DNA of 64,000 nt. Origin: Fodinibius roseus (GTDB lineage: Bacteria; Bacteroidota; Rhodothermia; Balneolales; Balneolaceae). Shown here in pieces: positions 5,177 to 63,600 of the stretch. The stretch covers positions 124,001 to 188,000 of the forward strand of contig NZ_FQUS01000001.1 of the NCBI RefSeq assembly GCF_900129315.1. Reading direction: 5' to 3'. Position 1 is the stretch's first letter, and the number at the start of each line of letters is the position of its first letter. A model generated the notes under the pieces. It made no database searches and had not been told where the DNA came from. It saw only the letters and a list, made by a program, of their open reading frames with translations. A program made the translations under genes and the position numbers.

Positions 5177-6421
5177 ATGAAAAAAGCTAAACCTCGTATT
5201 TACCTTTCTTCTCCTCATATGGGCGGGGACGAAATCGACTATATTCACGAAGCCTTTGATACAAACTGGATCGCACCACTGGGAGCAAATGTGGATGGAT
5301 TTGAAAAAGACCTGGAGAGCTATACCGGAAGAGCGCACGCTGCGGTTGTTACTTCAGGTACGGCTGCCCTTCACCTGGCGTTGCTCCTTTGTGGAGTAGA
5401 ACGGGATGATGAGGTTATTTGCCAGTCTCTCACCTTTGCAGCTTCTGCCAATCCGATACGATATCTGGGTGCTAATCCTGTTTTTATTGATTCGGAAGCA
5501 GAAACCTGGAATATGGACCCGGAGCTTTTAGAACAGGCCATTATAGATAGAATAGAAAAGAATAAAGGTAAACCCAAAGCGATTATACTGGTTCACCTGT
5601 ATGGTATGCCGGCAAAGGTCGGCAGCATCGCGAGAATTGCGTCAAAATATGGCATCCCTGTTATTGAAGATGCCGCAGAGGCATTGGGTTCATCGGTACG
5701 GGGCAGAATGTGTGGTACTATTGGTAAATTATCTGTTCTCTCTTTTAATGGGAATAAGATTATAACTACTTCGGGAGGAGGAGCATTACTAAGTGATGAG
5801 GAAGATCTTATAAATAAAGCCCGGTTTCTCTCAACACAGGCCCGGGATAATGCTCCGCATTACCAGCACTCAGAGCTGGGCTACAATTACAGGATGAGCA
5901 ATATCATTGCCGGAATAGGCCGGGGACAGATAAAAGTTATAAATGACCGTGTGCGCAAGCGGCGTTCCAATCATGAATACTATTTCCGGGAGCTGGACGG
6001 TACTTGGCTCGATCCCGAAGATCGGTATCCTGTTGATGACATCGGATTCAAAACAAAAAATTCCCCGGGCGGTATCTATTTTTTGAAAGAGCCCGAGCAT
6101 TACTACAGCAACCGGTGGCTTACAACCATACTTGTGAATCCCAATCAGACCGGAGGAATAACCAGAGAAAATCTCCGTCTGGCACTGGAGGATCAGAACA
6201 TCGAAAGTCGTCCCCTGTGGAAGCCCATGCATTTGCAGCCGCTTTATCGAGACTTTCCATATTATGGCAGGGGAATATCTGATGAGGTTTTCAAGTATGG
6301 GTTATGCCTTCCATCCGGTAGTAATCTGAGGGATCAAGATCTATTGCGGGTTGTTACAACTATAAAAAAGGTTCTTCGTCTTTCCTCACGTCGATTAAGC
6401 AAGAGCGGGATGAGATCATAA
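5177..6421 (+). CDS. DegT/DnrJ/EryC1/StrS family PLP-dependent sugar aminotransferase
   Basis: 414 residues, the usual length for this family, which transfers an amino group from glutamate to a 4-keto (or 3-keto) nucleotide sugar in the cytosol. Visible features are the SGTAAL loop (60-65) that binds the PLP phosphate, EDAAEALGS (164-172) with the Asp that contacts the pyridine nitrogen, and SFNGNK (189-194), where Lys194 is the expected Schiff-base lysine. The C-terminal QNIESRPLWKPMHLQP segment is typical of PglE/WecE-like members. The next gene encodes a UDP-GlcNAc 4,6-dehydratase-like enzyme, so the pair probably makes a UDP-4-amino-4,6-dideoxy sugar. The start follows a sigma-54-like box. 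Confidence 0.9.
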   Translation: MKKAKPRIYLSSPHMGGDEIDYIHEAFDTNWIAPLGANVDGFEKDLESYTGRAHAAVVTSGTAALHLALLLCGVERDDEVICQSLTFAASANPIRYLGANPVFIDSEAETWNMDPELLEQAIIDRIEKNKGKPKAIILVHLYGMPAKVGSIARIASKYGIPVIEDAAEALGSSVRGRMCGTIGKLSVLSFNGNKIITTSGGGALLSDEEDLINKARFLSTQARDNAPHYQHSELGYNYRMSNIIAGIGRGQIKVINDRVRKRRSNHEYYFRELDGTWLDPEDRYPVDDIGFKTKNSPGGIYFLKEPEHYYSNRWLTTILVNPNQTGGITRENLRLALEDQNIESRPLWKPMHLQPLYRDFPYYGRGISDEVFKYGLCLPSGSNLRDQDLLRVVTTIKKVLRLSSRRLSKSGMRS

Positions 6422-37654: not shown

Positions 37655-38248
37655 ATGGGGGCGGAAGAATCCAAAGAGGAACTCCGGGTGCTGCTGCGTT
37701 CAAAGCGGGCCCGTATTTCCGGTTCCGATTATGCAGCGTATTCAAAAAAAATCGTTGCAACACTTCAGCAGCAGCAGGAATTTCAGTCTGCAAAGACCAT
37801 TCACTGCTATGTATCTATAAATGAACGCCGGGAAGTAAACACCCGCTGGTTGATTAAAGCCATGATAAAAAGGGGAAAGCAGGTGGTGGTGCCGCTAACA
37901 CATTTTAAGGACAAAACGCTCACCCACTTTGAACTGGCCTCATTTGATGATCTTGTACCCCGTAAATGGGGGGGGCTGGAGCCAAAGCCCACAGATAGCC
38001 TAAGGCGCCATCCGTCTGAACTGGAGCTGGTTATTGTGCCGATGGTGGGAGGCGATGAACAGGGGCACCGGATCGGCTACGGAGCGGGGTTTTATGACCG
38101 TTTTTTAAAAAAAACCGTATGCCCGGCCATCGGGCTTTGTTTTGAGCAAAATATTATACCCATCCTGCCCACGGACGATCACGACGTATCCCTGGATAAA
38201 ATAATTACCGAAGAGCGGGTTATTGAGAGGGTGGGGGGCGCTGAATAA
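37655..38248 (+). CDS. 5-formyltetrahydrofolate cyclo-ligase
   Basis: 197 residues from the ATG at 37655; a GTG one codon earlier is also possible. The N-terminal LRVLLRSKRARIS, the central VPLTHFKDKTLTHFEL and the C-terminal VIVPMVGGDEQGHRIGYGAGFYDRFL (ATP-site GxGxGFYDR motif) define the MTHFS/YgfA family. It converts 5-formyl-THF to 5,10-methenyl-THF using ATP. It starts 2 bp after bshC ends. Confidence 0.93.
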   Translation: MGAEESKEELRVLLRSKRARISGSDYAAYSKKIVATLQQQQEFQSAKTIHCYVSINERREVNTRWLIKAMIKRGKQVVVPLTHFKDKTLTHFELASFDDLVPRKWGGLEPKPTDSLRRHPSELELVIVPMVGGDEQGHRIGYGAGFYDRFLKKTVCPAIGLCFEQNIIPILPTDDHDVSLDKIITEERVIERVGGAE

Positions 38249-38630
38249 CCCGATAGCTTGTATTTTTTGATCTATTTAGCCGATGCAATGTTTTGAGGAT
38301 GGAAGGTTAGGGACGGAGACCGTAAAGTGGAGGCCAGACCGTTAGGGTAGGAGGTCGGACAGACGGCCGTGGCAAAAGACTTGGAACCTCCCTGATCTAC
38401 CTTGTCTGGGCTTGACAATAATCGCAGACATGATATTATGGAGTCATTTATACGAGGAGCGGTTTTCGTTGTTTTTTTCGTAACATTCTGCGGTTATCTC
38501 CGTAAAAGATAGAGGTAGCTAAAGAAGCCTTCAAGTACGGTTGTCTTATCCTCCAGATCATTTGAGGGATCATTGAGTGGAGTATCGGGAATTGCAAAGT
38601 CAACTTTGTTAACGCAAAACGAGAAAAGTT
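38249..38630. other. Intergenic region upstream of the PspC gene
   Basis: This 382-bp gap holds a promoter-like pair TTGACA (38412-38417) and TATTAT (38434-38439) with a 16-base spacer, about 190 bp before the PspC start. A 68-codon minus-strand frame at 38448-38654 overlaps the PspC start and has no family features. Nothing else is recognised. Confidence 0.4.
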
Positions 38631-46072: not shown

Positions 46073-46867
46073 ATGAAATATCCCATACAAAAATGGAAGC
46101 GATTTCGGCGCCGCAGGAAGCGAGAGAAAGACGGTCGTCCCCGTAAACAGATCCCTCGTATCGTCGTGCCCAGCTTCTTTACCCTGATGAACCTTTTTTG
46201 TGGTTTTCTGGCTATCATCAGCATCTCGGAGGGACGATTGTTCTTCGGGGCCTGGCTTATTGTGTTTGCCGGACTTTTTGATGCGCTGGACGGGTTTATG
46301 GCCCGCCTTTCCAATGCTACCAGCCAGTTTGGTATTGAGCTTGATTCAATCAGCGATGTGGTTTCCTTTGGCGTGGCCCCGGGCTTTTTGCTGTATACCT
46401 TTGGACTGGGAGAGATGCCCTTCGTCGGGATTATTCTCAGCGCTCTGCCCCCGCTTTGCGGGGCCGTGAGACTGGCACGATACAACGTGGATGCCCAGGA
46501 GGGTCCTGCCGATTTTTTCAGGGGACTGCCAATACCGTCTCAGGCTATTATGATCGCTGCCTTCTATCTTACGTTTTATAACCGGCTGGATCTGTTTGCA
46601 GGTTTTAAATACGGTGCCAATACCGTGATCGTGCCCCTGATCATCCTGCTTTCGTTTTTGATGGTGAGCACGATACCATTTGATAAAATTCCCAGCTTTG
46701 ACAGGCAGTCGATCAAAAAACATAAAGGCAAAATCGCACTGTTTGTGTTTTATGGCATTCTCATCCTGCTATTCCAGGAAATCGGACTTATGATGGTTTT
46801 CTCTGCTTTTATACTGAAGGGGATCATTATCGGGGGCATCCTGTTTTTCAGGGAGGCGTACGGGTGA
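46073..46867 (+). CDS. pssA: CDP-diacylglycerol-serine O-phosphatidyltransferase
   Basis: 264 residues with about six to eight membrane helices. The CDP-alcohol phosphatidyltransferase motif is complete: DALDGFMARLSNATSQFGIELDSISD (DGx2ARx8Gx3Dx3D, about 64-86). It condenses CDP-diacylglycerol with serine. With psd it forms the two-step route to phosphatidylethanolamine. The trp leader begins 75 bp after its stop, so part of trp transcription could come from here. Confidence 0.95.
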   Translation: MKYPIQKWKRFRRRRKREKDGRPRKQIPRIVVPSFFTLMNLFCGFLAIISISEGRLFFGAWLIVFAGLFDALDGFMARLSNATSQFGIELDSISDVVSFGVAPGFLLYTFGLGEMPFVGIILSALPPLCGAVRLARYNVDAQEGPADFFRGLPIPSQAIMIAAFYLTFYNRLDLFAGFKYGANTVIVPLIILLSFLMVSTIPFDKIPSFDRQSIKKHKGKIALFVFYGILILLFQEIGLMMVFSAFILKGIIIGGILFFREAYG

Positions 46868-46903: not shown

Positions 46904-46932
46904 TTGCTTTTAGCGGATGCGGACATTATATT
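46904..46932 (+). promoter_or_regulatory. Candidate trp promoter
   Basis: TTGCTT (46904-46909) and TATATT (46927-46932) are 17 bases apart. The predicted start falls only a few bases before the leader ATG at 46942, so the leader would be nearly leaderless, or the true promoter lies upstream. This weakens the call. Confidence 0.3.
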
Positions 46933-46941
46933 CAGATCGTA

Positions 46942-47019
46942 ATGGAAAAAACAACTCATAATAACAGCAATTGGTGGTGGCCTGTAGCGAAAAACATACA
47001 GGCAGTGGCAGGATTATGA
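46942..47019 (+). CDS. trpL: trp leader peptide (25 residues, three consecutive Trp)
   Basis: A 25-codon frame starting MEKTTHNNSNWWWPVAK and ending VAGL, with three TGG codons in a row at positions 11-13 and no other Trp. It lies between pssA and trpE and its stop precedes the terminator hairpin by 26 bases, exactly the layout of ribosome-mediated attenuation. Ribosomes starved for charged tRNA-Trp would stall on the Trp run, in segment 1 of the hairpin set described for the attenuator. Confidence 0.85.
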   Translation: MEKTTHNNSNWWWPVAKNIQAVAGL

Positions 47020-47081
47020 GTTAGATTATTAAAAAGCTTTTTGAGAACCCACTGCAGGTAAACTGGAGTGGGTTTTTTATT
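46980..47081 (+). promoter_or_regulatory. trp attenuator: mutually exclusive hairpins
   Basis: Segment 1:2 is GCCTGTA (46980-46986) with TACAGGC (46997-47003), a 7-bp stem starting at the last Trp codon. Segment 2:3 is GCAGTGG (47002-47008) with CCACTGC (47049-47055), 7 bp and overlapping both other structures, so it acts as antiterminator. Segment 3:4 is the terminator at 47046-47074. A ribosome stalled on the Trp codons would cover segment 1 and free segment 2 to pair with 3, letting RNA polymerase continue into trpE. Confidence 0.85.
47046..47080 (+). terminator. Attenuator terminator hairpin of the trp operon
   Basis: AACCCACTGCAG (47046-47057) pairs with CTGGAGTGGGTT (47063-47074) over 12 positions with one mismatch, with loop GTAAA, and is followed by a run of T residues. 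It stands 34 bp before trpE. Confidence 0.88.
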
Positions 47082-47113: not shown

Positions 47114-48592
47114 ATGCAACTTGATGAGTTTAAACAGTTAGCGAAGAATTTCACGGCTGTCCCCGTATACCGCACGCTTATGGCGGATATATTGACCCCG
47201 GTATCGTTGTTTCTGAAGCTGAGGGAACAGAGCCGGTATCCCTTTTTGCTGGAGTCAGTGGAAGGAGGAGAACAGCTTGCCCGCTATTCTTTTTTAGGGC
47301 GCAATCCATACCAGGTGTTAAAATATGAGGAGCAGGAGGTTTCCCTTCGGAAGGGCAGTGAAGTCACGATCCTTGACCAGTCTTATTTTGAAGCCCTGAA
47401 AGAGTTGACGACGCAGCACAGCGAGCCCAAACTTCCGAACCTGCCGAGGCTGACAGGAGGTGCCGTGGGCTTTTCCTCTTATGATACCGTGCGGGAAGTG
47501 GAAGAGCTGCCACGGGCGCCTGAAGCCGATGTGGAGATACCGGAGGCGATCTGGGCCTTTTATGATGAGGTTTTTGCGTTCGATCATGTCAAGCAGCAGG
47601 TTATTATCGTAAAAACGGTGTTTGTCGACAAGGAAGCAGAAAGCGACGATAAATACCACCGCGCTCAGCAACGACTCGATGAGCTGGAAACCCTTGTTCT
47701 CCAGCCCAATCCGGTAACGGATTACTCTTTTTCAATAGATCCGGGGAGTCTGACGAGCAATATCGAGCAATCGGCCTTTGAGTCAATGGTCCGGCAGGCC
47801 AAGGACTATATCTATGAGGGTGATATTTTCCAGGTGGTTCTTTCCCAGCGCTTTGAATGCGACTTTGAGGGTGATCGGTTTATGTTGTACCGGGCCCTGC
47901 GGATGGTTAACCCCTCTCCCTATCTTTTTTTCCTGGATTTCGAGGATTTCGCTCTCGTAGGATCCTCCCCGGAAGTATTGGTGCGCGTACAGGATAGCAC
48001 GGCCCAGCTGCTGCCCATTGCGGGAACACGTCCCCGCGGGGACACAGAAGAAGCGGACCGGGCCCTGGAAGAGGAGCTGAAAAACGATCCCAAGGAGATC
48101 GCCGAACACGTAATGCTGGTTGACCTGGGACGCAATGACTTGTCCCGTGTATGTCGGCCGGGTACGGTTAAGCCCGTGCGGGAGCAGGTCATTGAGCGGT
48201 ACTCTCACGTCATGCATATCGTTTCAGATGTAAAAGGACAGCTGGCCGAAGATCAGACATCCGTTGATGCGCTCATGCAGTGCTTCCCGGCCGGCACCGT
48301 GAGCGGGGCTCCCAAGATCCGGGCGATGGAAATTATCGATGAGCTGGAACCCACCCGTCGGGGTCCCTATGCCGGCGCGGTGGGATATTTTGATTTTTCG
48401 GGAAATATGGATACCTGTATTGTTATCCGAACCATGTTGGTAACGGATTCCAGGGTCTATATTCAGGCCGGAGCGGGGATCGTAGCTGACAGCGATCCGG
48501 AGAAAGAATATCTTGAGACAAAGGATAAGGCCGGCGCGCTGGTTGAGGCTCTTAGTGTGGCCCTGACGATCAGGGCCTCTGGCAACACCTGA
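47114..48592 (+). CDS. trpE: Anthranilate synthase component I
   Basis: 492 residues, full length. The N-terminal LLESVEGGEQLARYSFLG segment carries the tryptophan feedback-site motif (LLES). The chorismate-binding C-terminal domain has DIFQVVLSQRFE, GSSPEVLVR, IAGTRPRG, HVMLVDLGRNDLSRV, SDVKGQL, FPAGTVSGAPKIRAMEIID and YAGAVGYF. It makes anthranilate from chorismate with TrpG. The attenuator above it controls the operon; the Trp-site suggests allosteric control as well. Confidence 0.97.
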   Translation: MQLDEFKQLAKNFTAVPVYRTLMADILTPVSLFLKLREQSRYPFLLESVEGGEQLARYSFLGRNPYQVLKYEEQEVSLRKGSEVTILDQSYFEALKELTTQHSEPKLPNLPRLTGGAVGFSSYDTVREVEELPRAPEADVEIPEAIWAFYDEVFAFDHVKQQVIIVKTVFVDKEAESDDKYHRAQQRLDELETLVLQPNPVTDYSFSIDPGSLTSNIEQSAFESMVRQAKDYIYEGDIFQVVLSQRFECDFEGDRFMLYRALRMVNPSPYLFFLDFEDFALVGSSPEVLVRVQDSTAQLLPIAGTRPRGDTEEADRALEEELKNDPKEIAEHVMLVDLGRNDLSRVCRPGTVKPVREQVIERYSHVMHIVSDVKGQLAEDQTSVDALMQCFPAGTVSGAPKIRAMEIIDELEPTRRGPYAGAVGYFDFSGNMDTCIVIRTMLVTDSRVYIQAGAGIVADSDPEKEYLETKDKAGALVEALSVALTIRASGNT

Positions 48593-48803: not shown

Positions 48804-49793
48804 ATGAAAACTATTTTATCCGGCATTCAGTCGTCCGGCAAACTACACCTTGGGAACTACTTCGGGGCCCTGCGCCAGCATATACAGATGCAGGAAAAAG
48901 GAGATGCCTTTTATTTTATTGCCAATTATCATTCCATGACCTCTATTGACGATGGAGAAGAGATCTATCAGAATACCATTGATATTGCCCTCGATTACCT
49001 GGCATTGGGACTTGATCCCGACAAGTGCACCTTTTTTGCCCAAAGTGATGTACCGCAGGTTACCGAACTGGCGTGGATGCTAAGCACGTTCTGTCCCGTC
49101 AGCATGATGGAAAAAGCGGTGGCCTATAAAGATAAAGTGGCCCAGGGCGTGACGCCCAATATCGGGCTCTTTACCTACCCAATTCTACAGGCCGCGGATA
49201 TCCTTATCTATAACTCGGATGTGGTGCCCGTGGGACAGGATCAGAAGCAAAATATAGAAATTTGCCGTGATCTGGCCGGCAGGTTTAATCACAATTACGG
49301 GGATGAGTTTTTGAAGCTGCCGGAAGAATATATTGTCAAATCGGTGGCCGTAGTGCCCGGCATAGATGGGCGAAAGATGAGCAAGTCGTACGGCAATACC
49401 ATCGGCATTTTTGATGAAGGTAAAACACTCAGAAAGAAAGTGATGTCCATTGAAACGGATTCCACCCCGCTGGATGAACCCAAGGATCCGGAGCGTTGTA
49501 ACGTCTTTGCCCTGATCAAACTGTTTGCCGGGGAAAGCAAGCAGCAGCAGATCGCCGATAAGTACCGGGCGGGCGGTTACGGCTACGGGCACGCCAAAAA
49601 TGAATTGCTGGATATGATAGAGGTATATTTTGCTGAAGCGCGTGCGAAACGAAAGGAACTGGCACAGGATATAGACACCGTCCGGGATATTTTATCAGAG
49701 GGCGGGAAAAAAGCCCGGGCCCGGGCTGAATCCGTGATGGAACCCATCCGGGAGGTAGCCGGTGTGTTTAAGAGTTATGAATTTAATGAATGA
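48804..49793 (+). CDS. trpS: Tryptophanyl-tRNA synthetase
   Basis: 329 residues from the ATG at 48804. The longer frame starts within the MITE-like repeat and is rejected, because this start gives the standard MKTILSGIQSSGKLHLGNYFGAL, with the HIGH-type HLGN. The KMSKS loop is GRKMSKSYGN (about 191-200). GPV/DQ-type features such as PVGQDQKQNIE are intact. It charges tRNA-Trp. Its position inside the attenuated trp operon would place the enzyme under the control of the level of its own product. Confidence 0.96.
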   Translation: MKTILSGIQSSGKLHLGNYFGALRQHIQMQEKGDAFYFIANYHSMTSIDDGEEIYQNTIDIALDYLALGLDPDKCTFFAQSDVPQVTELAWMLSTFCPVSMMEKAVAYKDKVAQGVTPNIGLFTYPILQAADILIYNSDVVPVGQDQKQNIEICRDLAGRFNHNYGDEFLKLPEEYIVKSVAVVPGIDGRKMSKSYGNTIGIFDEGKTLRKKVMSIETDSTPLDEPKDPERCNVFALIKLFAGESKQQQIADKYRAGGYGYGHAKNELLDMIEVYFAEARAKRKELAQDIDTVRDILSEGGKKARARAESVMEPIREVAGVFKSYEFNE

Positions 49794-50014: not shown

Positions 50015-50611
50015 ATGATCTTAATCATCGATAATTACGATTCATTTACCTATAACCTGGTGGATATCCTTGCCCGGCATACCGGCCAGTACAAGGTGAT
50101 CAGAAATGATGCGCTTACGCTGGAAGAGGTACAAGCGCTAAACCCGGATAAGATACTCATTTCCCCCGGACCCGGACGTCCGGCCGATGCAGGGTTAACG
50201 GAGCCGATCATCAGGGAATTGGGTCCCCACACCCCTATTTTGGGCGTTTGCCTGGGACTTCAGGCCATCGGTGAGGTATACGGAGGAAAAGTTATCCACG
50301 CTCCTAAACTGATGCACGGCAAGACCTCGACCATACGACATGACGGTCGTTCTGTCTTCCGGAATATCCCCAATCACTTTACGGCCACCCGCTACCACTC
50401 ATTGATTCTCGACCCGGAGCAGATTCCGGATGAATTGGAGGTGACGGCCCACAGCGATGATGATGTTATTATGGGTATTCGGCACAGAACCTATCCCGTG
50501 GAAGGAATACAGTTCCACCCGGAAAGCATACTGACCGTTGAGGGACCGGATATCATTAAAAATTGGCTGGAGCTGGCGATGGATCAACAGTCAAAGACAG
50601 GTATAAAATAA
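50015..50611 (+). CDS. trpG: Anthranilate synthase component II (glutamine amidotransferase)
   Basis: 198 residues. IIDNYDSFTYNLVDIL at the N-terminus, the catalytic Cys in GVCLGLQAIGE (about 77-87) and the His/Glu pair in GIQFHPESIL (about 168-177) are the class I GATase triad. SPGPGRP is the oxyanion-loop motif. It supplies ammonia to TrpE. trpS separates it from trpE, which is unusual. The 221-bp gap after trpS holds a 72-codon frame with no family features. Confidence 0.96.
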   Translation: MILIIDNYDSFTYNLVDILARHTGQYKVIRNDALTLEEVQALNPDKILISPGPGRPADAGLTEPIIRELGPHTPILGVCLGLQAIGEVYGGKVIHAPKLMHGKTSTIRHDGRSVFRNIPNHFTATRYHSLILDPEQIPDELEVTAHSDDDVIMGIRHRTYPVEGIQFHPESILTVEGPDIIKNWLELAMDQQSKTGIK

Positions 50612-50651: not shown

Positions 50652-51683
50652 ATGGAATTTATTGAAGTATTAAATAAGCTGGTGAACCATGGTGATTTAT
50701 CTCTTGATGAGGCTCGCCGCGCCCTCGAATTAATTATCTCCGGGGAGGTGGAGGATGAACGTATTGCGGCCTTTCTGACAGCGATGCGGATGAAAGGAGA
50801 GACGATAGAGGAGCTTACGGCTTTTGTCGAAGTCATGCGTGAGGCTGCCATCAAACCACAGGTTGAGACGGAAGGAGCCGTGGATTTGTGCGGGACCGGC
50901 GGTGATAGTTCCGGGACCTTTAATATTTCGACCGCTGCCATGTTTGTTGTTGCCGGGGCGGGGGTTCCGGTGCTGAAACACGGGAACAGAAGCGTATCGA
51001 GTAAAAGCGGCAGTGCGGATGTTCTGGAGGCCCTGGGTGGGGTTATCGATCTTAATAAGGAGCAGGTGGAACAGGTTTTTGAGCAGACCGGCATGGTCTT
51101 TATGTTTGCTCCCAATTTCCACCCGGCGATGAAGCATGTGATGAAGGCCCGCCGCACGGTGGGCATTCGCACCTTTTTTAATATCCTGGGTCCGCTGTTA
51201 AATCCGGCATCCGTAAAACGTCAGGTCATCGGTGCCTACAGTAAAGAGATTGCGCGAAAAATCGCCCGGATTCTGGCCAACCTGGATACGGAGTTTGCGT
51301 ATACCCTGAATGCACACGACGGATTGGATGAGGTGAGTCTGAGTGCTCAAACCGAAATTTTTGAACTGACCAATCAAATGATGAAAGAGTCGACCACTTT
51401 TGATCCCCGTTCGCTTGAATTTCAATGGGCGGATCTTGAAAAACTGCAGGGAGGGGACGCCGATTTTAATGCGGATATTATCCGTTCCGTTTTAGCTGGC
51501 AAAGCAAAGGAACCACAGAAAAATATTACGCTTTTGAATGCTGCTTTTGGTATTCATGCCTCCGGAAAAACTAAGCATCTCACTGAAGCCAAAGAACTTG
51601 CAAAGGAGAGCTTGAAATCAGGTAAAGCACTTAAGGCCCTTGACCGTTTTGTGGAAGCAACGAACGAGGCCGCAGAAAATTAA
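50652..51683 (+). CDS. trpD: Anthranilate phosphoribosyltransferase
   Basis: 343 residues. CGTGGDSSGTFNISTAAMFVVAGAG (about 80-104) is the PRPP and pyrophosphate loop of the family, with KHGNRSVSSKSGSADVLEALG following and RRTVGIRTFFNILGPLLNPA in the second half. It joins anthranilate to PRPP. It follows trpG by 40 bp and leads to trpC 11 bp on. Confidence 0.97.
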   Translation: MEFIEVLNKLVNHGDLSLDEARRALELIISGEVEDERIAAFLTAMRMKGETIEELTAFVEVMREAAIKPQVETEGAVDLCGTGGDSSGTFNISTAAMFVVAGAGVPVLKHGNRSVSSKSGSADVLEALGGVIDLNKEQVEQVFEQTGMVFMFAPNFHPAMKHVMKARRTVGIRTFFNILGPLLNPASVKRQVIGAYSKEIARKIARILANLDTEFAYTLNAHDGLDEVSLSAQTEIFELTNQMMKESTTFDPRSLEFQWADLEKLQGGDADFNADIIRSVLAGKAKEPQKNITLLNAAFGIHASGKTKHLTEAKELAKESLKSGKALKALDRFVEATNEAAEN

Positions 51684-51694
51684 TACGAAAGACG

Positions 51695-52501
51695 ATGGCA
51701 ACCATACTTGACGAAATCGTAGAGCAGACGGCCCGGGATTTACAAAAACGGAAACAGAAAGTTACCTTTAAGGATCTTGAATCACATGAACGCTACGAGC
51801 AGCCGGCACGAAACTTTAAAAAAGCCCTGGCAGACGCTCCCGACGTAGCGATCATTGCTGAAATTAAGAAAGCTTCTCCTTCCAAGGGTCTCATACGCAA
51901 GGACTTTGATCCCCGTAAAATTGCCGGACAATACCAGGAGGGGGGAGCCTCGGCCATTTCTGTACTGACCGACCAGCCGGCTTTCAAGGGACGGTTGGAA
52001 TATCTGGAAATTGCTTCTAAAGAAGTTTCTATCCCATTGTTGCGCAAGGATTTTATTATTGATCCCTACCAAATAAAGGAAGCAAAGGCCTATGGAGCTG
52101 ATGCCGTGTTGTTAATTGTGGCGATAACCGAGGGACAACAGCTCGAAGAGCTGCTTCATGCTGCGGAGGAGTTTGGGATCCAGGCGCTGGTCGAATGCTA
52201 TTCGGAGAACGATGTTGAGAATGTTATGTTTGATCAGGTTGACATTCTGGGCGTCAATAACCGTGACCTGCGGACGTTTGAAGTAGATTTGCACCGTGGG
52301 GTTGCCCTGTTACAACGCGCTCCTGAAGAAACAGTACTGGTCTCCGAAAGCGGATTACGCAGGGCGGAGGATTTATATTATTTATATGAGAAAAAAATTC
52401 ACGCGGCCCTGATCGGAGAACATTTTATGCGCCAGCCCGATCCCGGCCGGGCGTTACGCAACATGAAGAAAGAGCTCCGGGAACAAATCGAAAACGTATA
52501 G
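51695..52501 (+). CDS. trpC: Indole-3-glycerol-phosphate synthase
   Basis: 268 residues, monofunctional. IIAEIKKASPSKGLI (about 51-65) carries the catalytic Glu and Lys, LLRKDFIIDPYQIKEA (about 114-129) the second catalytic Lys, and VGVNNRDL-like GVNNRDLRTFEVD and VSESGLRRAEDL the phosphate loops. It closes the indole ring. It is separate from trpF, unlike the enteric fusion; trpF starts 7 bp later. Confidence 0.97.
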   Translation: MATILDEIVEQTARDLQKRKQKVTFKDLESHERYEQPARNFKKALADAPDVAIIAEIKKASPSKGLIRKDFDPRKIAGQYQEGGASAISVLTDQPAFKGRLEYLEIASKEVSIPLLRKDFIIDPYQIKEAKAYGADAVLLIVAITEGQQLEELLHAAEEFGIQALVECYSENDVENVMFDQVDILGVNNRDLRTFEVDLHRGVALLQRAPEETVLVSESGLRRAEDLYYLYEKKIHAALIGEHFMRQPDPGRALRNMKKELREQIENV

Positions 52502-52508
52502 TGAACCG

Positions 52509-53183
52509 ATGTTTGCAGATCCTGAAGAACGATCAAAAGTAAAAATATGTGGCATTACCAGCCTGGAGGATGCCCGCTTTGTCTCGGGCGCGCTGGCCGA
52601 TTATCTGGGGTTTATCTTTTATGAAGGCAGTCCGCGTCATATTACACCGGCCAAAGCGGGGGCGATTATCAAATGGGTAGAGGGACCGAAATGTGTGGGA
52701 GTCTTTGTAAATCAGCCGCTGGATGATGTCAATATGATTGCCCGGCAAACAGGGATCGACTATGTGCAGCTGCATGGCAGGGAAAACCCGGATTACTGTC
52801 ACCTGGTGGATAAGCCGGTCATCAAGGCGATCCATATCCGTGAAAATGACCGTCAGGGGGATATTGAATCGCGTATCGGGCCGTACCTTGACCGGGTGGA
52901 TTTTCTGCTGTTCGATACCAAGATCGAAGGGCAGTGGGGCGGGACGGGAGAAGTATTTGACTGGAGCCTGCTCGACAGGGTCACGCAACAGGTGCCTTTT
53001 TTCCTGTCCGGGGGACTCCATCCGGGGAATGTCCGGCAGGCGTGCAAACGGGTACATCCCTACGGGGTTGATCTTGCCAGCGGTGTGGAGAGCGAGCCGG
53101 GTATCAAGGATTTTGATAAGGTTGAAACCTTTATGGATGAGATGCGAGCCATTTGGGAACAGCAGGAGATGGGCGACTTGTAA
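52509..53183 (+). CDS. trpF: Phosphoribosylanthranilate isomerase
   Basis: 224 residues. KVKICGITSLEDAR (about 9-22) contains the catalytic Cys, LGFIFYEGSPRHITP follows, VQLHGRE sits mid-protein, LLFDTKIEGQWGGTGEVFDW has the catalytic Asp, and FLSGGLHPGNV is the phosphate loop. It performs the Amadori rearrangement before TrpC. Confidence 0.96.
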   Translation: MFADPEERSKVKICGITSLEDARFVSGALADYLGFIFYEGSPRHITPAKAGAIIKWVEGPKCVGVFVNQPLDDVNMIARQTGIDYVQLHGRENPDYCHLVDKPVIKAIHIRENDRQGDIESRIGPYLDRVDFLLFDTKIEGQWGGTGEVFDWSLLDRVTQQVPFFLSGGLHPGNVRQACKRVHPYGVDLASGVESEPGIKDFDKVETFMDEMRAIWEQQEMGDL

Positions 53184-53228: not shown

Positions 53229-54419
53229 ATGACATACAATTTACCAACAAAGAAAGGGTATTTCGGGAGTTTCGGCGGGAAATTTGTCCCTGAAATTTTA
53301 ATCCCGGTACTGGAGGAGCTGGAAAAGGCCTATGATTCGGCCTGGAAGGATGAAGCGTTTCGAAATGATTATCTTGATCTGTTAGACGATTACGTGGGAC
53401 GTCCCACCAAGCTAACCCATGCCAACCGGTTGAGCGAGTATTACGGAAAAGCTAAAATCTATCTGAAACGGGAAGATCTCTGTCACACCGGAGCCCACAA
53501 AATCAACAATGCGATCGGTCAGATATTGCTGGCCCGGCGAATGGGCAAGCAGCGTATCATCGCAGAGACCGGAGCGGGACAACATGGCGTGGCTACGGCC
53601 ACAGCCTGTGCCAAGTTCGGTGTGGACTGCATCGTGTATATGGGCACCGAGGATATGGAGCGGCAGAAATTGAATGTAGAGCGCATGCAGCTGCTGGGCG
53701 CGGAAGTACGTCCGGTGGAAAGTGGTTCCAAAACGCTGAAAGATGCCACCAACGAGGCGATAAGAGATTGGGTTACGAATGTAGAAGATACGTTTTATAT
53801 CATCGGATCGGCCGTGGGTCCGCATCCCTATCCCATGATGGTGCGCAATTTTCAGCGTATTATCGGCGATGAGACCCGGAGACAACTTATGGAAGCTGAA
53901 GGGGAGGGAACGCTGCCTGATTACCTGTTGGCCTGTGTGGGCGGGGGATCCAACGCAATCGGCATTTTCTATCCCTTTATCGACGATGAATCCGTACGAA
54001 TGTATGGGCTCGAGGCGGCCGGGCTGGGAGCCGATACCGACCAGACTGCGGCTACACTGACCATCGGCCGGCCGGGGGTGCTGCATGGGTCGCTAAGCTA
54101 CCTGCTGCATAACAAGGAGGGCCAGATCCAGCTGGCTCATTCCATTAGTGCGGGACTCGATTACCCGGGTATAGGACCGGAGCACGCTTATTTACAGGAT
54201 TCCGCCCGCGTAACCTACGCTCCCATTACCGATGAACAGGCCATGGAGGGGGTCAAACTGCTCTCTGAACTGGAAGGAATCATACCGGCCCTTGAAACCG
54301 CTCACGCCATTGCTTATCTGGAAGAGCTGATGCCCCGGACCAGAGAAGGGGAAATAGTCGTGCTCAATTGCTCCGGACGCGGGGATAAGGATATGGGCAC
54401 GATTTCTGAGTATATATAA
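53229..54419 (+). CDS. trpB: Tryptophan synthase beta chain
   Basis: 396 residues, the standard TrpB1 length. [13 protein letters not shown] (about 82-94) carries the PLP Lys, [12 protein letters not shown] the loop after it, [12 protein letters not shown] the phosphate-binding Gly run and NCSGRGDKD the C-terminal serine that contacts PLP. It condenses indole with serine. Its upstream spacing includes AAGGAAGG as a Shine-Dalgarno. Confidence 0.98.
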
Positions 54420-54589: not shown

Positions 54590-55408
54590 ATGGTTAAAAA
54601 GAATACACAGCAAAATCGTATAAACCGGCTTTTTAAACAGCATGCGGATTCACCAGAAAAAATAATGAGCCTCTTCCTGACGGCCGGTTATCCCGACCCG
54701 GAATCTACCGTTGACCTTATCCTGGGGTTTGAAGAGCACGGGACCGACCTGGTCGAGCTGGGGATGCCTTTCAGTGATCCGCTGGCTGACGGACCTACGA
54801 TCCAGTATTCCAGCAATGTGGCCATCGAGCAGGGGATCACCATGTCCAAAATATTCACTATGGTACGACAGGTGCGGGAGCGGTCCGACATTCCCATCAT
54901 TTTAATGGGATATATCAATCCCGTGTTGCGGTTCGGAATCGATGCCTTTTGTGAGGAAGCGGCCGCTGCGGGAGTCGACGGCCTTATTATCCCGGATATT
55001 CCCCTTGAGGAGTCGGGGATCATGGCTGACAAGGCAGCGGAACAGGGCCTTCCCCTGGTTTACCTGGTAGCTCCCAATACCCCGGATGAGCGCATGCGTA
55101 AAATTGATGCGCTTTCAGAGGGTTTTGTATATTGTGTGTCCGTAACCGGGGTAACCGGCGCCCGCGAGGGAGAGGAAGTGGCCCAATCGGTACAGCGGTT
55201 TATTGACCGGGTCAAGCAGAATGTAACCCGTAATCCAAAAATGGTCGGTTTCGGTATCAAATCGCATGAAGATGCCCGGCGAATTGCGGCAGATATGGAT
55301 GGTTTTATCGTCGGCAGCGCACTTATCGATACCATCAGAGAGTCGTATCCCCGGGAGGGATGGAAGGATGAGGTATTTGCTTTTGTTCATTCGTTAAAGT
55401 ATGGTTAG
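54590..55408 (+). CDS. trpA: Tryptophan synthase alpha chain
   Basis: 272 residues. LFLTAGYPDPESTVDLI near residue 28, LVELGMPFSDPLADGPTIQ (about 51-69) with the catalytic Glu and Asp region, DGLIIPDIPLEES and VSVTGVTGAR are the family motifs, with GFGIKSHEDARR as the phosphate loop. It cleaves indole-3-glycerol phosphate and passes indole to TrpB. It comes 170 bp after trpB, a wider gap than elsewhere in the operon. Confidence 0.97.
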   Translation: MVKKNTQQNRINRLFKQHADSPEKIMSLFLTAGYPDPESTVDLILGFEEHGTDLVELGMPFSDPLADGPTIQYSSNVAIEQGITMSKIFTMVRQVRERSDIPIILMGYINPVLRFGIDAFCEEAAAAGVDGLIIPDIPLEESGIMADKAAEQGLPLVYLVAPNTPDERMRKIDALSEGFVYCVSVTGVTGAREGEEVAQSVQRFIDRVKQNVTRNPKMVGFGIKSHEDARRIAADMDGFIVGSALIDTIRESYPREGWKDEVFAFVHSLKYG

Positions 55409-60603: not shown

Positions 60604-63600
60604 ATGGGAAATGATACGAGAAGAAAGGGATTAGGTATGGTAAGGCAACTCATCTTGATTTGTCTCGGATTGGTGGTAAGTGTACTGTTTTACCCGGCAC
60701 AAACGGCCGGTTTTGATACATTAACAACCCCACTTACGATGCAAGGTACTCAGCAAGAGCATACGGTCACCGGGGTGGTTTCGGACAGCCAATCCGGGGA
60801 GGTCTTGCCCGGAGTTAATATTTCGGTGGAAGGTACAACAACAGGGACCTCTACAAATTCAGACGGCACGTATGCTATTACGGTATCTTCTGAACAGGAT
60901 ACGCTCGTTTTTTCTTTTGTGGGATTTCAAACCCAGACAATACCCATCAACGGAAGAAGTAGGATCGATGTGGAATTAGCACCGCAGGCTATAGTAGGGG
61001 AAGATGTCGTCGTTGTTGGTTACGGGAGCCAGGAGCAACAAGATGTTACCGGTTCGGTTTCTTCGGTATCATCCGAACAAATTGCTGAAGTGCCGGTCAG
61101 TGACGCGGCTTCCGCTTTGCAGGGCAGAGCCGCGGGGGTGATGGTGGCCCGGTCCGGTAGTCAGCCGGGCGACGGGGTGACAGTCCGGGTGCGGGGACGG
61201 CGCTCGCTGTCCGCATCAAACGACCCTCTTTATATAGTGGACGGGATACCTTTCAGCGGGGATATCAGTGATATCAATCCCCAGAATATCGAATCGATGG
61301 AGGTATTGAAAGATGCCTCCGCCACGGCAATATACGGATCGCGGGGAGCCAATGGAGTCATACTTGTTTCTACCTCCCGCGGGGGAAACTATGAAACCCG
61401 GGTTTCTTATGACGGCTATTTTGGTGTTTCCAGTCAGCTCGAGGAGCCGGATATGATGAGTGGACCGGAATTTGCTGAAATGCGGCGGGAGGCGTTTCGT
61501 GCCATTGGGGAGTACACCGGCGATTCGGATATTTTTACCAATGCCGAACTGGAAGCGGTTAATAATGGCGTCACCTACGATTACCCGGATTTGGTTACGG
61601 ATCAGGCCGGATATCAACAAAGTCACCAGATAACAGTTCAGGGGGGGAATAAACGGACGCAATTTTCGGTGAGTGGTAATTACTTTAATGAGATCGGTAT
61701 TATTTCGGGACAGGATTTCAACCGTTATACATTCAGGATTAACCTGGATCATGAAGTAAGCGACCGGTTCCGAGTCGGTACGTCCACCCTGCTTTCCCGC
61801 TTTGATCAGGCCTATGGGGTCAACCCGTACGGGAATGCCCTTTCTGCTAATCCGCTGGGGGATCCCTATAACGAAGACGGGTCGCTCGATTTTCGACCGA
61901 CCGATGACGGATTGGCGACGAATCCCCTGAGTGACCTGGTTCCCGGAAAAGTGCTCGACGACCGTGAACGACTGCGCGTGTTCAGTAATATTTTTGCCGA
62001 ATACGATATTACGGATAACCTGAATTATCGCATAAACTTTGGTCCGGACCTGCAGGCCTACCGGCGCGGAGTTTTTCAGGGAACGGAGACCAATGCCCGG
62101 GGAGAGGGCGTGCCCTATGCTGAAAAGTCCGAAAATTTACTGCACAATTACACGCTGGAAAATATCCTGAATTACCAGCAGACCTTCAGCGATACCCATG
62201 AGCTGGATATTACCGGTTTGTTTAGTATTCAGACCGAACATTTTGAAACGGATACGGTAGCGGCTTCCGGGCTTCCCTATGAAACACAGAAGTATCATAA
62301 TCTTGGTACGGCCAATACGGCTGAAAATTATTCAAGCTACTTGGAGGAATGGGGAATGATGTCGTTTATGGGACGTGTGAATTACCAGTTTAACAACACA
62401 TATCTTTTTACGATTACGGGACGCGCTGACGGTTCCTCCCGGCTTGCGGAAGACAACAGGTGGGGATTTTTCCCTTCCGCAGCCATAGGATGGAGAATCA
62501 CTGAAGAACCGTTTATGGCCAATCAGGATCTGTTTTCCGATCTCAAGCTGAGAATCAGTTACGGAGTGACGGGTAATACGGCTATTGATCCATACCAGAC
62601 ACAGGATATTCTGGCAAGGAGCACCTACCAGTTTGGTGATAATCCCGGCTACGGTTACCGTCCGGGACAGATTCCCAACAAGAATCTTCAATGGGAAGTA
62701 TCCAGGCAGTTGAATGTAGGATTGAATTACGGTCTTTGGGATTCACGGGTGACGGGCAGTATCGAGGTCTACCAAACCAATACGACCGACATGCTGCTCC
62801 AGCGGAATCTACCTATTACTTCCGGCTTCGGCAGTGTCTTTGAAAATGTAGGAGAAACCAAGAATCGCGGCATCGAGTTTACCCTGAACAGCCAAAATGT
62901 ACTGGACAGCGGCCGGGATGGATTCAGCTGGAGCAGTGAACTCACATTGTTCGCTAACCGTGAGGAGATCATAGACTTGTATGGCAACAGGGAGGATGAT
63001 GTGGGGAATCAGTGGTTTATCGGCGAGCCGCTGACCGTTTGGTACGATTATGAAAAGATCGGGATCTGGCAGGAAAGTGAAGAGGATGAGGCCGATTCCT
63101 ATGGACAGAATCCCGGCGAAATCAAAGTAAAAGATCAAAATGGTGACGGCATTATCAATGAGCAGGATCGCGTCATCCTGGGAAGCGATATGCCGGACTT
63201 AAGTGGTGGTTTAGCCAATCATTTCAGTTATAAGGGGTTTGATCTTTCTGTTTTCCTGTATGGAAGTTTCGGACAAATGATCTTCAATAACTTCAGAGCA
63301 GGCAATGCAGCAGCTATTGATGAAGCCGACGGGGGAAATAATACGCTTGCGGGCCGATATAACAACATAGATATTGACTACTGGACGCCGGACAATCCCA
63401 CCAACAAGGCACCCCGGCCCAATCAGAGCCGGGAATATCCGCTCTATGGAGATACAATGGCTTACCAGGATGGATCTTTTCTCAAGATACGGAATGTAAG
63501 ACTGGGTTATAACCTGCCGCTCGAAACGGTACAGCGTGTAGGCCTGCGTTCCCTGCGGATATATATAAATGCTGAGACTCCGCTGCTCTTTTCTAAAACA

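Follow-up and report, generated by a model that had tools for sequence, protein, structure and literature searches.

The trp locus and its leader

The window, by which we mean the whole 64,000-nucleotide stretch of Fodinibius roseus DNA that was analysed, contains the tryptophan genes in the order trpE-trpS-trpG-trpD-trpC-trpF-trpB-trpA (Table 1). The closest named relative of its TrpE was that of Fodinibius sediminis (Balneolaceae), at 83% identity. A search of the F. roseus genome for trpS returned a single strong match, the gene located between trpE and trpG.

A short leader precedes trpE, with 36 bases between the end of the putative attenuator (47078) and the start of the gene (47114). 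The original prediction had described this region as a 25-codon leader with three adjacent TGG codons, a 7-bp 1:2 stem, an overlapping 7-bp 2:3 stem and a 12-position terminator stem followed by T residues just before trpE. The frame was found base for base and translates to MEKTTHNNSNWWWPVAKNIQAVAGL, both 7-bp stems were read as claimed, and the terminator stem consisted of 11 pairs plus one G.G mismatch. The 2:3 stem overlaps both the 1:2 and the 3:4 stems, and region 2 falls within the leader frame. The fold of the leader was more stable than expected (z = -4.6), with none of 200 dinucleotide-preserving shuffles being equally stable. In the 390 kb of the genome that were scanned on both strands, no other short ATG frame contained a Trp run, and no other scanned candidate combined an amino-acid run, a terminator and a close TANNTT box.

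Table 1. Positions of the leader features and trp genes within the window.
Feature	Position	Strand	Sequence or evidence
Promoter-like -33 TTG	46904-46906	+	TTG 20-25 nt before the TA box in 60/62 leaders
Promoter-like -10/-7 box TATATT	46927-46932	+	Begins 15 nt upstream of the leader ATG
Leader peptide frame	46942-47019	+	25 codons plus TGA; ATG 46942, TGA 47017-47019; kept in relatives
Outer helix 5' arm	46953-46962	+	AACTCATAAT; MFE pairing, partner-permutation test
Regulatory Trp codons	46972-46980	+	TGG TGG TGG; read directly, kept in relatives
Region 1	46980-46986	+	GCCTGTA; direct reading and folding
Region 2	46997-47008	+	TACAGGC with region 1, GCAGTGG with region 3
1:2 stem	46980-46986 x 46997-47003	+	GCCTGTA x TACAGGC, 7 bp
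Outer helix 3' arm	47013-47022	+	ATTATGAGTT; includes the leader stop codon; MFE pairing, permutation test
Region 3, antiterminator partner	47049-47055	+	CCACTGC; core pairs in 34/34 aligned sequences, compensatory changes
2:3 stem	47002-47008 x 47049-47055	+	GCAGTGG x CCACTGC, 7 bp
3:4 intrinsic terminator hairpin	47046-47074	+	Arms AACCCACTgCAG (47046-47057) and CTGgAGTGGGTT (47063-47074); 98% of cells paired, double changes at five pairs
Terminator T run	47073-47078	+	Direct reading
trpE	47114-48592	+	Pfam Anth_synt_I_N and Chorismate_bind
trpS	48807-49793	+	Pfam tRNA-synt_1b; only tryptophanyl-tRNA synthetase gene found in the genome
trpG	50015-50611	+	Pfam GATase
trpD	50652-51683	+	Pfam Glycos_transf_3
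trpC	51695-52501	+	Pfam IGPS
trpF	52509-53183	+	Assigned from the conserved gene order and from sequence
trpB	53229-54419	+	Pfam PALP
trpA	54590-55408	+	Pfam Trp_syntA

Conservation and co-variation across Balneolales

A Trp-run leader together with a T-tailed hairpin and the 2:3 pairing was observed before trpE in 62 of the 72 named Balneolales loci with sufficient upstream sequence, and the same layout occurred in most of the family genomes searched, a set that overlaps with the named Balneolales. These leaders lie ~137-240 nt upstream of trpE, and the 5' arm of the hairpin base-pairs with a stretch that lies within the frame or beyond it. The leader peptides diverge in sequence and nearly always retain WWW, mostly as WWWP or WWWH. 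A second group within Balneolales has a shorter leader (e.g. MFNSNTHISIWWWPFC), in which region 2 is positioned at the stop codon and the 2:3 pairing has a different sequence (CTGAAAGCGG with CCCGCTTTCAG).

Pairing was counted in an alignment of 34 leaders, sequences that are kin and for which we chose the stems to be counted. The seven core 2:3 pairs were standard in all 34 leaders, with double changes at two of them (G-C to A-U and U-A to C-G). The 3:4 stem was paired in 98% of cells and contained 36 double-change cells, compared with a mean of 9 in shuffles and a maximum of 3 when slid, while the 1:2 stem was the weakest of the three and paired in 68% of cells. The outer helix around the leader hairpin co-varies as well, judged by its duplex energies in 52 sequences: the mean was -10.3 kcal/mol with the arm's own partner versus -6.8 kcal/mol with permuted partners, and none of 5000 partner permutations matched the own-partner energy. 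The check proposed with the original prediction, a search of relatives for the WWW frame and for co-varying 2:3 and 3:4 stems, was thereby borne out across Balneolales, where frame and stems are conserved and the stems co-vary.

A terminator at this position would by itself be unremarkable, as the preceding gene, which has the same orientation, ends at 46867, and the hairpin might be a constitutive spacer that ends the upstream transcript, the Trp frame being incidental. We find this scarcely credible, however, since three elements, the WWW frame and regions 2 and 3, are retained throughout the order and co-vary as a set, and a conserved promoter-like pair sits between the upstream gene and the leader.

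One marine Balneolaceae clade (loci L099, L101, L104, L105, L107, L109, L112, L113 and L114) was observed without the Trp leader and with the terminator retained. The region ~60-200 nt before trpE in these loci contains a promoter-like box and a strong terminator, and two conserved blocks, CTCYAAAG and CTGTCACTAGTGTTTACCCAC, lie between box and terminator. These upstream regions gave no match to Rfam and have no run of UGG codons, and they perhaps hold a different attenuator in place of the leader peptide.

Promoter spacing and ribosome position

In 60 of the 62 Balneolales leaders the first base of a TANNTT box is found 11-16 nt upstream of the leader ATG, and all 60 also have the upstream TTG. 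At the same distance, 19 such boxes were counted before 318 longer ORFs of the F. roseus genome. The pair of boxes resembles the -33/-7 promoter described for Bacteroidota (PMC7366714), and in the window it places the predicted transcription start at ~46938-46942, or ~0-4 nt before the ATG. Because the pair is held at this fixed distance, the leader mRNA is probably leaderless or nearly so, and the leader peptide would be read from it as such, the promoter box standing directly before the start codon, as expected of a leaderless mRNA. Leaderless mRNAs are rare in Bacteroidota: in B. thetaiotaomicron 3.7% of mRNAs have a 5' UTR under 10 nt (PMC7366714), the figure for F. psychrophilum is 5.5% (PMC9723704), and leaderless mRNAs were reported in 1 of 37 Bacteroidetes/Chlorobi genomes (PMC3160421).

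With transcription probably beginning no more than a few bases away from the leader ATG, a ribosome could load immediately on the 5' end. When charged tRNA-Trp is scarce, this ribosome is predicted to stall on the three Trp codons and to cover region 1 along with some of the outer helix, leaving region 2 free to form the 2:3 stem ahead of the synthesis of region 4, so that the polymerase would continue into trpE, trpS and the remaining genes. When charged tRNA-Trp is plentiful, the ribosome would instead reach the TGA and cover region 2, allowing the 3:4 stem to form and transcription to terminate. Should no ribosome be present, the 1:2 stem and the outer helix would sequester region 2, and termination would again be favored in F. 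roseus itself.

Folding was consistent with this scheme. Using an assumed ribosome footprint of ~13-15 nt downstream of the A-site codon, ensemble folding predicted that regions 2 and 3 share at least 5 bp in 49 of 52 sequences when the first Trp codon is occupied by the ribosome, and in 2 of the 52 when the ribosome sits at the stop codon. The pairing also formed in 17 of the 52 without a ribosome, so the protection afforded by the 1:2 stem and the outer helix is not uniform. Folding energies for the window had region 2 held by the 1:2 stem and outer helix in the absence of a ribosome, and gave 2:3 as the fold behind a stalled ribosome until region 4 exists. As the terminator is the more stable structure once region 4 has been made, the switch would be kinetic, like that of the classical model.

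The terminator and antiterminator taken by themselves are compatible with several types of switch, including a tRNA-binding T-box and a switch operated by a metabolite or a TRAP-like protein in place of a sensing ribosome. Against these stand the conserved feature itself, a translated run of Trp, variable in sequence, within a frame that has its own start and stop, and the absence of any Rfam family at cut-off in the window. TRAP binding moreover requires some 11 spaced (G/U)AG repeats, of which the sequence shows only a few, and these irregular. A non-ribosomal sensor is, to us, very improbable. The T-box, for which Rfam gave no match in the window, and TRAP were both rejected as candidates. 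At E-values up to 10, Rfam gave only weak, below-cut-off matches in the window; the families concerned were unrelated, and several were leaders that carry a terminator.

The features of a trpL-type leader were found together at this locus: a short frame upstream of the first trp gene that contains consecutive Trp codons, three stems (1:2, 2:3 and 3:4) that exclude one another and recur in relatives (1:2 being the weakest), an intrinsic terminator just before the structural gene and, in silico, a ribosome position that predicts the stem formed. Order-wide conservation, co-variation and the modelled response of the fold to ribosome position all support the mechanism first proposed, and we are highly confident that the region upstream of trpE attenuates transcription of the trp operon by a ribosome-mediated mechanism. 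The trp genes are very likely turned on when charged tRNA-Trp is short.

Known leaders and the placement of trpS

While the original prediction did not count this layout as a standard trait of Balneolota/Bacteroidota-type genomes, it is already known in Bacteroidota as Bacteroid-trp, an RNA listed among the cis-regulatory elements of Bacteroidetes (PMC2864571, Table 1; Weinberg 2010). Its Rfam entry is RF01692 ('Bacteroidete tryptophan peptide leader RNA'), which matches other Bacteroidota loci. Leader-peptide attenuation has been inferred in Flavobacterium psychrophilum (PMC9723704, PMC6414381), where Bacteroid-trp was likened to the E. coli attenuator (PMC6414381). The F. roseus leader shares with Bacteroid-trp a Trp-run leader before trp genes and, compared with the consensus, a long imperfect leader hairpin begun inside the frame and followed by the start of a terminator. 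RF01692 gave no match in the window or in the F. roseus genome at its curated cut-off of 49 bits, and was found above cut-off in 11 of 148 Bacteroidota genomes, all within one family (f19), which appears to be Flavobacteriaceae.

Of 80 diverse regions upstream of trpE, 53 contained a short frame with clustered Trp codons, in most cases followed by a terminator; these included Rhodothermales-, Ignavibacteria- and Cytophagia-like regions and excluded Chlorobium-like ones, the group names being inferred. A similar promoter box lay within 11-19 nt in 37 of these 53 leaders of other Bacteroidota, while several of the Flavobacterium-type leaders (f19) stand further from the box than do those of Balneolales. 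Vitreschak et al. reportedly described attenuators in Bacteroidetes/Chlorobi as well in 2004. Our literature search for attenuators in Balneolota found no paper on the subject. Since the trait itself is known in Bacteroidota, what is new here is its conservation across an order, together with a start that is probably leaderless and the place of trpS in the operon.

The leader resembles the enterobacterial trpL of E. coli (RF00513) in its adjacent Trp codons, its mutually exclusive 1:2, 2:3 and 3:4 stems and its T run. It differs in that region 2 lies within the frame, that there is an additional, outer helix, that the operon includes trpS and, if our reading of the promoter is right, that a Shine-Dalgarno sequence would have no room. 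RF00513 (cut-off 41 bits) gave no match at the trpE leader, and elsewhere in the genome only sub-threshold matches. A leaderless trp attenuator whose transcript starts at the leader ATG is known from rnTrpL of Sinorhizobium meliloti, although this is an alphaproteobacterial system with a 14-aa leader, in which RNA and peptide also act in trans (PMC7298713). In Streptomyces, attenuators predicted for the trp operons and for trpS2 likewise tie attenuation to a tryptophanyl-tRNA synthetase gene; there trpS2 has its own predicted attenuator, an arrangement known for a trpS gene of S. avermitilis, whereas here trpS sits within the trp cluster (PMC1262725).

A covariance model built from the trp leaders found no further trp attenuator in the F. 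roseus genome, and its next matches were Cys-rich leaders. One Cys/Met-rich leader (..MDMCMCCCMNPLKGSG..) is located on contig C16 at ~38131-38311 (L268:2132-2310), upstream of a gene for a rhodanese-like sulfurtransferase and a sulfite-reductase-like gene; its segment GGTAGTGG pairs with CCACTACC of a strong terminator. This type of leader is conserved in two other genera (L262:657-840 and L264, minus strand ~760-931) and appears to be a cysteine-responsive attenuator for sulfur assimilation. Cys/Met-rich leaders with terminators were also observed on contigs C34 (~61923-62092; L267, minus strand 1909) and C44 (~5433-5557; L266:486), one preceding a gene for a luciferase-like monooxygenase and the other an isochorismatase-like gene. 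In two Ignavibacteria loci the Trp codons of the leader are spaced and not adjacent (e.g. NWYWFWYRWYG), at ~225 nt (L128) and ~164 nt (L132) before trpE, with a terminator ahead of the gene.

The attenuator might act on trpE alone, with trpS and trpGDCFBA transcribed from their own promoters, and the gaps of 214 nt (trpE-trpS) and 221 nt (trpS-trpG) in the window would leave space for these. The trpE-trpS gap is only ~10 nt in several relatives, however, and in all 76 Balneolales loci (L053-L127, L129) trpS is the next gene after trpE. A promoter/terminator scan of the operon, which does not cover Bacteroidota-type promoters, likewise gave no clear excess of promoter sites over shuffles. We consider control of trpE alone unlikely, though still worth weighing, and favor co-transcription of trpS with trpE from the attenuated promoter. 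In other Rhodothermia (a class name inferred from named relatives), trpS was found on the same strand within 1.7 kb downstream of trpE in 36 of 40 genomes; trpS was not seen near trpE in the Ignavibacteria loci examined.

Since the sole trpS lies between trpE and trpG and its place after trpE is constant in Balneolales, the gene of the charging enzyme, TrpRS, is probably also under the control of the sensor that responds to tRNA-Trp charging. An enzyme of charging placed behind a sensor of charging would form a direct loop, and its placement suggests feedback on charging and not on tryptophan alone. The fixed spacing from promoter to ATG in turn provides a testable claim on how leader peptides start in a phylum without Shine-Dalgarno use. 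These observations extend a textbook form of control to Balneolota and indicate that most of its range in Bacteroidota falls outside the published Rfam family. On balance we lean towards a broader view, in which Balneolales, and probably much of Bacteroidota, regulate trp genes by attenuation on leader-peptide mRNAs that are leaderless, although such messages are rare in the phylum, and in which the attenuation in Rhodothermia would also govern trpS, a closed loop that may hold the charging of tRNA-Trp constant.
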